A DNA stretch of 34,955 nucleotides, from positions 1-34,955 of IMG/VR virus record IMGVR_UViG_3300023184_000009. The stretch is one strand, 5' to 3'. Positions 14,783 to 27,757 of the stretch are shown here, in pieces. The notes beneath the pieces were generated by a model, which made no database searches, was not told the DNA's origin, and saw only the letters and a program-made list of their open reading frames with translations. This DNA comes from a virus. The position numbers and the translations under genes were made by a program. How positions within the stretch are numbered: the stretch's first letter is position 1; each line of letters starts with the position of its first letter.

Positions 14783-15219
14783 CTCTAGCTGAATTAATTC
14801 GTAGTGAATCAGCTAAAAGAAATGGGATATCTAATATGCCAACTGCAGAGCATATAGCTAATTTAAAATTATTAGCTGAAAACATTTTTGAGCCTATTAG
14901 AGCCAATTTTAGATGCCCTATTTTAATTTCAAGTGGATATAGGTCTAAGGAATTAAATGCCAAAATTGGGGGTGCTACGACATCACAACATTCATTTGGA
15001 CAGGCTATTGATATTGATATGGATGGCACTAACTATGGTGTTGACAATCAAGAAATATTTTATTTTATAAAAGACAAGCTACCTTTTGACCAACTTATTT
15101 GGGAATTTGGCAATGACAAAAACCCTGATTGGGTTCATTGTTCTTATTCAGATAGGCACAGAAGGGAAGTTTTAATAGGATATAAACAAAATGGTACTAC
15201 ACACTACAAAAAATTTTAA
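14761..15219 (+). CDS. Endolysin, peptidase M15 family
   Basis: A 152-aa zinc peptidase of the M15A type, which cuts peptide cross-links of peptidoglycan. Expected zinc ligands are all present: His77 and Asp84 in SQHSFGQAIDID and His126 in DWVHCSY. The SSGYRS motif at residues 57-62 is also characteristic. There is no signal peptide, so release through a holin is expected. Its stop overlaps the next start by one base (TAATG). The same fold can also occur as a virion-associated lysin, but the lysis cassette context favours endolysin. Confidence 0.9.
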   Translation: MYLSEHLTLAELIRSESAKRNGISNMPTAEHIANLKLLAENIFEPIRANFRCPILISSGYRSKELNAKIGGATTSQHSFGQAIDIDMDGTNYGVDNQEIFYFIKDKLPFDQLIWEFGNDKNPDWVHCSYSDRHRREVLIGYKQNGTTHYKKF

Positions 15220-19060: not shown

Positions 19061-19486
19061 ATGCAAACAATAGAAGCGAATATCATAGATTATTATTTAT
19101 CACAAAAGGATAATTTAAAAAAATTAAAAAATACCTTAGTGGCACATAATCTAATTGAGAAGGATGATAGAACTAGAAATAATAATAGGGTAACTATGAA
19201 GAAGCTAGTTGGCTTAGTTGAGGATGTTTTTGATACAGATGTATTAGCTAAAAATAGAATGCAGAATACTGTATTTGCAAGGAAGGCTGCTGCATACATT
19301 TTAAAAACACATACTTCACTATCTCTTAAAGAGATTGCTCCATACATAGGAGTAAGCGACCATACAACAGTCCTTTATAATATTTCTACTGCTAGAGACC
19401 TGATGCTAACAGAAGAATGGTATAAAAATAAAATTGATGAAATAGAAGATGAAATCAAAAAATATCATACTTTCGTTAACAACTAA
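19061..19486 (+). CDS. Stand-alone DnaA domain IV-like DNA-binding protein
   Basis: A 141-aa protein. Residues about 65-115 match the C-terminal DNA-binding domain of DnaA: FARKAAAYILKTHTSLSLKE followed by IAPYIGVSDHTTVLYNI, with the DHTTV signature at residues 100-104. The AAA+ ATPase and other DnaA domains are absent. It could bind DnaA boxes in phage or host DNA, either recruiting the host replisome to the phage origin or competing with host DnaA. It lies immediately before the structured RNA and the initiator-like gene. Confidence 0.8.
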   Translation: MQTIEANIIDYYLSQKDNLKKLKNTLVAHNLIEKDDRTRNNNRVTMKKLVGLVEDVFDTDVLAKNRMQNTVFARKAAAYILKTHTSLSLKEIAPYIGVSDHTTVLYNISTARDLMLTEEWYKNKIDEIEDEIKKYHTFVNN

Positions 19487-19489
19487 CCA

Positions 19490-19576
19490 AAACTATGTCG
19501 CATATAGTTTATAAAACAATACTAGGGGGAGGATGAACTGCTAATGCGACTAGCAGGGAGTCCGAACCCTATTTTT
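19490..19576 (+). ncRNA. Predicted kissing-loop RNA element before the initiator gene
   Basis: Hairpin 1 has a 7-bp stem AAACTAT/ATAGTTT (19490-19496, 19504-19510) with loop GTCGCAT (19497-19503). Hairpin 2 has stem CTGCT/AGCAG (19538-19542, 19552-19556) with loop AATGCGACT (19543-19551). Bases ATGCGAC of loop 2 are the exact complement of loop 1. Hairpin 2 is closed by outer pairs TAGGG/CCCTA (19523-19527, 19567-19571) and GGA/TCC. A run of five T follows, 5 bases before the next start. The layout suggests a cis-acting switch that could end transcription or block translation. It matches no class I recognise. Confidence 0.6.
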
Positions 19577-19580
19577 AATT

Positions 19581-20297
19581 ATGAAAAACAAATCTTATTA
19601 TTTTAGCCATGATATGAATGCAGCTAATGATGAAAAGATACTTTATCTAAGGTCTATTTATGGCATGGAAGGCTATGGTTTATATTGGTATTTTATTGAA
19701 CTACTGCACCAAGCTCAGGATTCTAAATTAAGATGTAAATTAATAAACGGAATTGCCTATCAAATTAACATTGATATAGATAAGTTATTACAGTTCTATA
19801 ACACCTGTATAGATGCAGAACTTTTTGTTACGGATGGAGAATTTTATTGGAGTCAAAGAGTTTTAGAAAATAAAGAAATACAAGATGAAAAAAGAAATTT
19901 AAAATCTTCTGCAGGAAAAAAGGGAATGGAAAAGCGTTGGAATTCAAATAGTTACAAAAGTGATATAACAGAAGATAACACTGTTATAACAGAAGATAAC
20001 AAAGGAAAGGAAAGGAAAGGAAAGGAAATAAAATTAAATACTAAAGATATATTTATAAATAATATAGATTTATACAAAGATTTTTTAGGAGATTCGTATA
20101 ACGAATTTTTAGAGTATTGGTGCGAACCCAATGCAAAAGGAAAAATGAGATACGAATTAGAAAAGTTTTTTGATGCTAAACGAAGAATAAATACTTGGAT
20201 TAAAAATAAAAATAAATATGGAAATACAAAAGCATTTAACCCAACCGCTACAAGTCAGCAACGAATGGCAACCCTTAAAGAGTGGGTTAATAGTTGA
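19581..20297 (+). CDS. Replication initiator-like protein (Lin1244/DUF4373-like N-terminus)
   Basis: A 238-aa protein whose first 110 residues match the Lin1244/Lin1753-type (DUF4373) domain of phage replication proteins: YYFSHDMNAANDEKILYLRS and YGMEGYGLYWYFIELLHQAQ. The domain is winged-helix-like and probably binds origin DNA. Residues about 110-155 form a linker with repeated ITEDN and KGKERKGKE. The C-terminal part, FLGDSYNEFLEYWCEP, is helical. The linker is encoded by DNA repeats that may themselves be the origin. It follows the kissing-loop RNA and overlaps the next gene by 80 bases. Confidence 0.75.
   Translation: MKNKSYYFSHDMNAANDEKILYLRSIYGMEGYGLYWYFIELLHQAQDSKLRCKLINGIAYQINIDIDKLLQFYNTCIDAELFVTDGEFYWSQRVLENKEIQDEKRNLKSSAGKKGMEKRWNSNSYKSDITEDNTVITEDNKGKERKGKEIKLNTKDIFINNIDLYKDFLGDSYNEFLEYWCEPNAKGKMRYELEKFFDAKRRINTWIKNKNKYGNTKAFNPTATSQQRMATLKEWVNS
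19964..20025. repeat. Repeat cluster inside the initiator gene; possible origin
   Basis: The 17-base unit TATAACAGAAGATAACA occurs at 19964-19980 and 19985-20001 (period 21). The perfect palindrome TGTTATAACA lies at 19982-19991. Five tandem AAAGG units fill 20001-20025. Repeats inside the initiator gene are a known way to place a phage origin (as in lambda O). The assignment is inference. Confidence 0.5.
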
Positions 20298-22096: not shown

Positions 22097-22365
22097 AACA
22101 CAGAGCATTTTTAAAAGAACATTATATTAATTATGAAACTGCTTTAAGTGGTTATGTAAGAAATTTAGATTTGCCTATATTAAAAATGTATGAGCATATT
22201 TACAGAACTTATTTGAACCCTACTTTTATTTTAACGATATGGTGCGCAGCTTGTAGAATGGAAATGATAATGAGGCTATACGCATACTATGTTACTTTGC
22301 CTTTACTTGAATTTAATGAACCTGAACAAATTATAATTAAAAAAACAAGAAAGAAAAATGGCTAA
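22087..22365 (+). CDS. Small protein, unknown
   Basis: A 92-aa protein rich in Tyr and Leu, with LSGYVRNLDLPILKMYEHIY and a CAAC at residues 55-58. The C-terminus is Lys-rich. It overlaps both neighbours by 8-10 bases and so belongs to the same transcription unit as the sugar-modification genes that follow. No family recognised. Confidence 0.6.
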   Translation: MELEHRAFLKEHYINYETALSGYVRNLDLPILKMYEHIYRTYLNPTFILTIWCAACRMEMIMRLYAYYVTLPLLEFNEPEQIIIKKTRKKNG

Positions 22366-22843
22366 TTATATACATCCAACTGCAATCATCTATGAAGATG
22401 TTGAACTAGGGGATAACAATTATATTGGTCCTTATTGTATTATAGGTGCGCCACCTGAACATAAAAAACATTGGGATAACCCTTGGTCTAAAGTTATAAT
22501 TGGAAACAATAATAAAATAACAGGATTAGTTACTATAGATGGTTGTACAGATGGAGAGGGTACTATCATTCATGATAATTGTTTTATAATGAAACATGCA
22601 CATATAGGACACGATTGTATTATACATGATAATGTAACTATTAGTTGTGGTGCTAAGATAGGAGGTCATTCAATAATTGAGCAGTATTCTAATATAGGAT
22701 TAAATGCAGTGCTTCATCAATTTGCTCATGTAGAGGAAGGTTGTATGATAGGAGCAAGTGCATTTTTTAAAGGTGAATCAGAACCATATACAAAATATGC
22801 AGGAGTTCCTGCTAGAAAACTAGGAGAAAATAAACCACGATGA
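22358..22843 (+). CDS. LpxA-like left-handed beta-helix acyltransferase
   Basis: A 161-aa hexapeptide-repeat acyltransferase. It opens IHPTAIIYEDVELGDNNYIG and continues with many [LIV]GxxxxI-type repeats to residue 150. The MKHAHIGHDC segment (His80, His82, His85) corresponds to the catalytic region of UDP-GlcNAc acyltransferases (LpxA type). It would transfer an acyl group to a nucleotide sugar or glycan. The protein is shorter than full LpxA (about 260 aa), lacking the C-terminal helical domain. It lies directly before two glycosyltransferases, so it probably helps build or modify a glycan. Confidence 0.85.
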   Translation: MANYIHPTAIIYEDVELGDNNYIGPYCIIGAPPEHKKHWDNPWSKVIIGNNNKITGLVTIDGCTDGEGTIIHDNCFIMKHAHIGHDCIIHDNVTISCGAKIGGHSIIEQYSNIGLNAVLHQFAHVEEGCMIGASAFFKGESEPYTKYAGVPARKLGENKPR

Positions 22844-25766: not shown

Positions 25767-26564
25767 ATGAGACAGGAAAATAGCGCATTTATTAGTTTTG
25801 GAAAAGCAGATAGTGGATTAATATTTGATGATTCTGCAAACAATGTATATCCTATACGATATTACAATATAATTAATGGAGTAGGTGCTAAACTAAATAA
25901 AGACTATTCTTACTATGGATATGTTTATAGTGGAAAGGTAACTATAAATAGAAAGTTCTTATCTCCATTGCAATTAGATAGTAAAATGTATTTTACTTTA
26001 TCAGATGAATTTAGTTTCTCTACAAATGAAATAGGTAGCTGCATTTTGATTGAGGTACTAAACAAAGGATATTATGAAGAATCTAATTTTAAATCATATG
26101 CTACCTTTGGTGGTCCTGTAGAGGAAGTAGGAAGATTAAAGTATATTGATGGTTGCACTGATAGCCTTTTAATTTCACCTGTAAAAAAAGGTCAGCCATG
26201 TTTGAATCATTTACATTTTCCTGAAGAGATAAATCAAACACAACATACGCATCCATCACATAGAATAGGTATTGTAGCTTCAGGATATGGAGAATGTATT
26301 ACTCCATTCGGTAATCTGCCATTATCACCTGAAATGATTTTTGTTATTAAAGCATGGGATGGTATAGAATATAGTACAGGACTAGATGGTAATTCATATC
26401 CAATTGGGCAACATGCTTTTCAAACATTTAATGCTCCTATGGATGTTATTGCGTTTCATCCTGATAGCGACTTTGGAGCAGAAGATGAATTTCATCCAAT
26501 GATTAATAGAACTATAGTTGGTGGTGTTTCTGCTAATCAGTTAAAAGATATAATGACTAAGTAA
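25767..26564 (+). CDS. Cupin-fold protein (double-cupin-like)
   Basis: A 265-aa protein. The C-terminal half carries cupin motif 1, LNHLHFPEEINQTQHTHPSH with His148, His150, His160, His162 and His165, then RIGIVASGYGECITP and a second motif near residues 188-232. The N-terminal half (about 30-100) is also a beta-barrel-like repeat without the metal histidines. Cupins bind metals and act as isomerases, dioxygenases or sensors; which applies is unknown. The stop overlaps the start of the IbrA-like gene (TAATG), so the two are translationally coupled, an unusual pairing. Confidence 0.7.
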   Translation: MRQENSAFISFGKADSGLIFDDSANNVYPIRYYNIINGVGAKLNKDYSYYGYVYSGKVTINRKFLSPLQLDSKMYFTLSDEFSFSTNEIGSCILIEVLNKGYYEESNFKSYATFGGPVEEVGRLKYIDGCTDSLLISPVKKGQPCLNHLHFPEEINQTQHTHPSHRIGIVASGYGECITPFGNLPLSPEMIFVIKAWDGIEYSTGLDGNSYPIGQHAFQTFNAPMDVIAFHPDSDFGAEDEFHPMINRTIVGGVSANQLKDIMTK

Positions 26565-27757
26565 TGAGTAAAATCAGAAAAAAGAAATATGAGGAAAGTA
26601 ATGTACTAGATGCAGCATTTAATAGAATGAGATACCTATACGATACATTTGATAATGTAGAGATTGGATTTTCAGGTGGAAAGGATAGTACTGCTATTTT
26701 AAATATAGCTTTAATAGTTGCAAAAGAAAAGAATAAACTTCCTGTAATTGCAAACTTTTATGATGAAGAGGCTATACATCCAACTACTATAGAATATGTA
26801 GAAAGAGTTAGGAATCATCCTGACATTAAATTAAATTGGTTTTGCTTAGAGTTTAAACATAGGAATGCTTCATCTAATGAAGAGCCTTATTGGTTCACAT
26901 GGGATAAGAACAAAAAGGATTTATGGGTAAGGGATATGCCTGAACACTCAATACAGGAACATAGCAAATTTTACAAAGGTCTTACATTCCAAGAGTTTAC
27001 TTCACTAAGAGCAGAGAAATCAAAAGGCACAACTGTAGATGTTACAGGAGTTAGAACGCAGGAAAGCCTTAGAAGATTTCAGGCAGTATCACAAAAGGTA
27101 AATGATAATTACATTTCTAGGTACGGACATTTTTCTATTGCGCATCCTATATATGATTGGAGCAGTCAGGATGTTTGGAAGTTAGTACACGAATGGAATA
27201 TAGATTATAATAAGACCTACGATATATTTAACCATACTAAACTAAGTAATAAGTTTCTAACACAAAGAGTATGTCCACCATTCGGAGAAGAGCCTTTAAG
27301 AGGCTTATGGATATATGCAGAGTGCTTCCCTGACCTATGGCATAAGATGCTTAACAGAGTAGAAGGTGTTGCTACTGCATGGAGATATGCAAATACAGAA
27401 CTTTATGGAGTAGGTGGTATTGAAAAGCCTGATGAATTAAGTTGGAAGGAATATCTATCATACATAGTTGACACATATACTGCAAAAGAAAAGAACTATG
27501 TTATCAATAATATAAACAGATATATTAAATTGCACAAAGAGAGATGTAAGGTAAGCATACACGATGTTAATGCTTCACCACTTACAGGCATTTCTTACAG
27601 ATGGCTTTGCAAGATTGCACATAAAGGAGATTTTAAAGGAAGGCAAGCACCTGACAATGAAAGAATTAACTCTATGAAAAGCGAAAACATTACACAGGAT
27701 GAAGCAGTTATTTTATATGGCACAGATAAGTATAAAACAGAATACTTTAAGAAATGA
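26564..27757 (+). CDS. IbrA-like ATP-pyrophosphatase (DUF3440, PAPS reductase superfamily)
   Basis: A 397-aa protein of the PAPS reductase/N-type ATP pyrophosphatase superfamily. The PP-loop SGGKDST is at residues 37-43, VTGVRTQESLRRF at 160-172, and QRVCPPFGEEPLRGLW at 234-249. The last is characteristic of the DUF3440 branch that includes IbrA. It lacks the C-terminal ECGxH of true CysH reductases, so it is probably not a sulfate assimilation enzyme. Such proteins adenylate or thiolate a substrate, as in tRNA or DndC-type DNA sulfur chemistry. It overlaps both neighbours by 1-4 bases. An IbrB-like ParB protein follows one gene later. Confidence 0.8.
   Translation: MSKIRKKKYEESNVLDAAFNRMRYLYDTFDNVEIGFSGGKDSTAILNIALIVAKEKNKLPVIANFYDEEAIHPTTIEYVERVRNHPDIKLNWFCLEFKHRNASSNEEPYWFTWDKNKKDLWVRDMPEHSIQEHSKFYKGLTFQEFTSLRAEKSKGTTVDVTGVRTQESLRRFQAVSQKVNDNYISRYGHFSIAHPIYDWSSQDVWKLVHEWNIDYNKTYDIFNHTKLSNKFLTQRVCPPFGEEPLRGLWIYAECFPDLWHKMLNRVEGVATAWRYANTELYGVGGIEKPDELSWKEYLSYIVDTYTAKEKNYVINNINRYIKLHKERCKVSIHDVNASPLTGISYRWLCKIAHKGDFKGRQAPDNERINSMKSENITQDEAVILYGTDKYKTEYFKK

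Follow-up and report, generated by a model that had tools for sequence, protein, structure and literature searches.

A conserved kissing-loop RNA ahead of phage replication-initiator genes, a candidate attenuator-like 5′ leader

The loops of ColE1 RNAI and RNAII are, like those described here, 7 nt long and fully complementary, but in that system kissing takes place between two antisense molecules, RNAII is a primer and no initiator gene is involved. The put RNA of phage HK022 offers another parallel, since it too has two hairpins and lies where an early phage transcript begins; compared by description, put is to our knowledge not known for loop–loop pairing or for a terminator-like U-tract immediately before a start codon. 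Nearest in layout are the rep-gene attenuators of pT181 and pIP501, which are under the control of antisense RNA (PMC3753616, PMC4981023). These share with the phage leader a terminator-like hairpin before a replication-initiator gene, the point at which their transcription is attenuated, and in pT181 the loops kiss as well (PMC3753616). Their partner, however, is a second RNA, transcribed from the opposite strand, whereas both loops of the phage leader lie on the sense RNA, and no conserved antisense promoter box was found over that leader in 33 contexts. Two hairpins kissing inside one leader also occur in purine and guanidine-II riboswitches, with P1–P2 kissing described as likely in the latter (PMC7357161). 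The phage leader differs from these riboswitches in its replication-gene context, its lack of an Rfam match and its lack of an invariant ligand pocket (its internal loops are replaceable by helix); no pocket is conserved in all members, and its genes are not tied to one metabolite.

We analysed a window of 34,955 nt, the whole stretch of DNA taken from virus record IMGVR_UViG_3300023184_000009, and coordinates are given as window positions. The leader and the gene behind it lie on the + strand. Hairpin H1 (19490–19510) has a 7-bp stem, AAACTAT (19490–19496) with ATAGTTT (19504–19510), that closes the 7-nt loop GTCGCAT (19497–19503). This loop is the perfect complement of ATGCGAC (19544–19550), the loop of hairpin H2 (19523–19571), from which H1 is separated by a predicted single-stranded linker of 12 nt (19511–19522). 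H2 forms a rod, 21 layers to each side, in which the stems TAGGG/CCCTA, GGAT/GTCC and CTGCTA/TAGCAG alternate with two symmetric 3 × 3 purine internal loops, GGA/GAA and GAA/GGA (19528–19537 and 19557–19566), in the order TAGGG-(GGA)-GGAT-(GAA)-CTGCTA, loop, TAGCAG-(GGA)-GTCC-(GAA)-CCCTA. The bases, coordinates, complementary loops and H1 fold reported in the initial annotation agree with the sequence, as do its outer H2 pairs TAGGG/CCCTA and GGA/TCC, the latter gaining a U-G pair to become GGAT/GTCC. That annotation had also placed the structure in front of an initiator gene. A terminator-like U-tract, TTTTT (19572–19576), indeed follows H2 immediately, and 10 nt past the H2 stem is the ATG (19581) of the presumed controlled gene, which encodes a replication initiation protein (19581–20297) matching Pfam Lin1244_N (PF14297; E 1.7e-10) and PHROG phrog_2562 (E 2e-19). 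Runs of T5 or longer within 25 nt 5′ of the start codon are found at just 2 of the 45 gene starts in the window. The gene directly 5′ of the leader (19061–19486) encodes a stand-alone DnaA C-terminal DNA-binding domain (PF08299).

RNA folding returned H1 and H2 as the minimum free energy structure, which is far more stable than the folds of shuffled sequences (z = −4.1 over 100 nt; −3.8 when H2 is taken by itself). In this fold the H1 loop holds two extra pairs, which the kiss would need to open. A blind scan of both strands for 7-nt loop pairs with stems of at least 5 bp yielded a single site in the window, once per strand, while 100 dinucleotide-preserving shuffles gave 0.03 such loop pairs per window and none with 7- and 6-bp stems. 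A chance origin of the complementary hairpin loops, previously judged unlikely, is excluded.

A probable Bacteroidota −7 promoter box, TACTTTCG (19468–19475, + strand), lies just ahead of H1 and has one mismatch to the consensus TAnnTTTG. The strict consensus occurs just 5′ of H1 in 29 of 33 distinct contexts, with 1.0 expected; antisense boxes number seven in the same 33 contexts, scattered and at no conserved position. In Flavobacterium the TAnnTTTG box spans −12 to −5 (PMC9723704), so transcription is predicted to start within about 1–15 nt of H1, near 19480 in the window as judged from the position of the −7 box. With the promoter box this close to H1, the conserved unit amounts to an almost entire 5′ leader, running from the promoter through H1, the linker, H2 and the U-tract to the ATG. 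The hosts of these phages are probably Bacteroidota, the phylum indicated by the promoter box.

The same element was found in more than 100 viral contigs from uncultured phages. These contigs were gathered with the initiator protein as sole bait, leaving the leader unconstrained; pattern scans added more, and two covariance models were built from the elements. Nearly all close relatives of the initiator have the element directly 5′ of their ATG. Across 119 elements the downstream start codon is ATG in 118, a T-run followed by the ATG is present in nearly every case, and H2 with its U-tract precedes the initiator ATG in the great majority, the others having a gene inserted between. One apparent absence (L033) and two cases of apparent distance (L269 and L282) are of the latter kind, the element preceding an inserted methylase or HNH gene. 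The proteins encoded downstream belong by their N-termini to DUF1376-like, Lin1244, MAIFRK-type replisome organizer and HTH_36 types, all of them replication initiators by PHROG or Pfam. The element keeps its order from promoter to ATG and is strongly linked to initiator operons, and the leader is conserved while the initiator protein is exchanged. As a separate observation, methylase, HNH, GIY-YIG-like and other genes lie between leader and initiator in L033 (2106–2987), L278, L269–L271, L282, L295, L099 and L293, with the distance from leader to ATG preserved; it looks as though mobile genes insert at the leader and make use of it.

When 45 viral records were searched whole, each had one element, barring record-end copies and marginal extra matches. 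In the window itself, the leader model gave a marginal match at 14853–14924 (E 0.05), which is probably due to chance. A short contig, L061, has two elements with differing loop pairs: the first carries GTAGGAT/ATCCTAC, and the second (L061:7438–7526), with GTGAGAT/ATCTCAC, stands before an HNH-type gene that is flanked by terminase-like ORFs on one side and portal-like ORFs on the other. Initiator relatives lacking the element were found in Flavobacterium phage 1/32, a Porphyromonas phage and a human-gut phage contig, and the element was absent from four initiator-like loci in host genomes. Searches of 395 genomes of the phylum returned one weak model match (L200), which we rejected, as it has no T-run and no adjoining gene start. 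We likewise discarded 13 pattern-scan matches in genome contigs of unrelated groups, none of which has the H2 rod by descriptor search, and several early pattern-scan matches that were chance hits in GGAGGA-rich coding sequence. Two versions of the element had no DNA match among named phages and plasmids, and a literature search on this motif found no description. The initial annotation had recognised no known class; Rfam 15 gave no match in the window at the gathering threshold and none in 19440–19640 at E up to 10. We class the element as a new family of leader/attenuator-type RNA, separate from those already known.

The loops of H1 and H2 are perfectly complementary in all 83 distinct elements, which use 13 different loop pairs, although these counts do not represent independent events because the sequences are related. 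The H1 register was guided by the loop pair, since choosing the longest stem gave wrong registers in some elements; loci found through the initiator protein alone, with loops unconstrained, bear new loop pairs. Pairing was preserved in 92.7% of cells in 26 elements, with 21 pairs changed on both sides, and in 89.8% of cells in 57 elements, with 27 pairs changed on both sides. In the latter set the kissing helix is 100% paired and five of its seven pairs are changed on both sides, as are all seven pairs of the H1 stem; the H2 stems also covary across relatives. None of 500 shuffles of the 57 elements reached any of the covariation measures, and sliding the partners by 1–3 columns lowered pairing to about 40%, every slid register collapsing. 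We also built a loop-centred alignment of 75 sequences (~16 effective), registered on the loops, a step that excluded no element (83/83 perfect loop pairs). Its top two pairs by corrected mutual information are kissing pairs and its top 19 covarying pairs all fall within the two-hairpin structure, leaving no conserved alternative, antiterminator-like pairing among them.

The most telling cases are a complete swap of the loops in one relative (L281, ATGCGAC/GTCGCAT), a coordinated change to 6-nt loops in another (L220, GAGCAG/CTGCTC) and loop changes between the near-identical rods of L070, L267 and L291. Wobbles on the + strand comprise 28 G-U against 0 A-C, so it is the + strand RNA that is under selection, and this selection maintains both hairpins and the pairing of their loops. 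The compensatory changes that the initial annotation had proposed to look for in related phages are thus present in both loops, and its kissing-loop RNA holds across the 83 elements: the kissing of H1 and H2 is established by covariation.

Geometry is conserved along with pairing. Among relatives the loops lie 45–51 nt apart, the H2 rod has 19–22 layers per side, H1 has 4–8 bp and the linker 11–19 nt. A T-run follows H2 in nearly all relatives, being T5–T7 at the H2 base in most elements, and in most elements H2 has the G+C-rich stem followed by a U-run that characterizes intrinsic terminators. In L128, L135, L154 and L217 nothing, or almost nothing, interrupts the long H2 stem, and with the T-run behind it the structure predicted from the bases looks like an ordinary intrinsic terminator, bearing out the terminator-like anatomy first proposed. 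Elsewhere purine–purine internal loops are conserved at 74–90% in H2 layers 7–9 and 14–15 (85–90% in layers 7–9) and are probable tandem sheared G-A pairs; in L128, L135 and L154 they are replaced by ordinary pairs. A simple terminator scan did not list H2 of the window, because the internal loops break its stem, and reported only partial stems for L128. For the same reason H2 with internal loops would be weaker as a classical terminator. Longer linkers tend to accompany more continuous H2 pairing (Spearman 0.50, p 0.006, n = 29, relatedness ignored). By rough estimate, the reach of the linker approximates the span of a stacked H1–kiss–H2 rod in most elements, and with a 7-bp H1 the linker is too short without bending. 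The tight loop spacing and the match of linker to stacked span favour pairing in cis within one RNA, and the geometry suggests a mutual strain between the kiss and a closed lower H2 stem.

The reading we favour, with somewhat more confidence than doubt, is that of a conserved cis-acting, attenuator-like 5′ leader RNA of phage replication-initiator operons, in which the kiss tunes passage through H2. A host-type promoter would start the RNA just ahead of H1, which would fold first; as H2 emerges, its 7-nt loop would pair with that of H1. In some of the passages a closed H2 would stop transcription at the U-tract, and it would also shade the ribosome landing zone, both effects being feasible because the U-tract ends H2 about 9–14 nt before the AUG. 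The kiss would then set how often RNA polymerase and ribosomes pass H2, and with it the amount of initiator. From the conserved arrangement, the element probably sets how much replication-start protein is made, while the output (termination or translation) and the sign of the effect are what we infer. As to the sign, we would guess that kissing works against closing the lower stem of H2, given a linker that barely spans the fully stacked structure or falls a little short of it. The base pairs of the kiss and those of a closed H2 can coexist, and the switch suggested in the initial annotation, in which kissing and terminator-like structures would compete and might set the timing of initiator synthesis, therefore has to be argued from strain or kinetics; for strain ours is a rough estimate.

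The same anatomy could serve translation alone, H2 blocking the 30S subunit and the kiss holding or releasing H2, with the T-run as a spacer at which no termination occurs. The H2 base lies at roughly −20 to −10 of the AUG, which suits such an operator in Bacteroidota: they use no Shine–Dalgarno sequence and rely on an unstructured start region, and in Flavobacterium johnsoniae this region must be unstructured and structure near the start codon lowers translation (PMC6847099). Yet a T-run directly after a stem is rare at other starts of this phage (2/45) and persists in relatives with an unbroken, terminator-like H2, and we regard a purely translational role as unlikely. A lower probability still is given to feedback in trans, in which terminated leaders would accumulate with copy number and kiss the nascent leaders of other genomes, lowering initiator synthesis in the manner of plasmid copy-number RNAs, yet with both partners on the sense strand. 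Fully paired 7-nt loops do resemble plasmid copy-control RNAs, a promoter followed by two hairpins and a U-tract is small-RNA anatomy too, and in the sole contig that carries two elements the loop pairs differ from each other. Loop–loop attenuation is, moreover, known in pT181 (PMC3753616). The 45–51 nt loop spacing and the linker matched to the stacked span nevertheless argue for pairing within one molecule, and every element stays next to its ATG.

The folded leader might instead bind a protein or RNA polymerase, whether as the target of an autogenous repressor or a phage factor or as a put-like antitermination RNA. Motifs for recognition or bending are what the conserved pair of purine-rich internal loops resembles, and there is one element per genome, just after a promoter; those loops, however, become ordinary pairs in L128, L135 and L154, and we think such binding quite improbable. 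The initiator itself is an unlikely ligand, since one and the same leader stands before several families of initiator. That the element acts as DNA, with the initiator reading it as an origin of replication or a cruciform, is hardly credible: it does adjoin the initiator gene in almost all of the phages examined, but it is unchanged when the initiator family changes, and the 28 G-U against 0 A-C wobbles point to selection on one RNA strand, a bias on which we rejected a DNA-level cruciform or origin.

This RNA family is widespread, undescribed and tied to one life-cycle decision, the synthesis of the initiator, and it would add a layer of control to phages in which little is known about how replication is controlled. 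Two 7-nt loops with 13 natural pairs, including a natural swap, provide a clean, mutable handle on intramolecular kissing and its effect on termination or translation. More tentatively, and with more doubt than belief, we raise a new class of phage regulatory RNA for protein-free control of initiator dose, in which the loop of a 5′ hairpin pairs with that of the terminator hairpin further along the same molecule; the two loops could also pair between copies. If the loops did pair between copies, phages would sense their own genome number through sense–sense kissing.

Other genes of the window lie further from the leader. A hexapeptide-repeat protein (PF00132) is encoded at 22358–22843, 3′ of the replication genes, and at 26564–27757 the phage encodes a PAPS reductase domain together with DUF3440.
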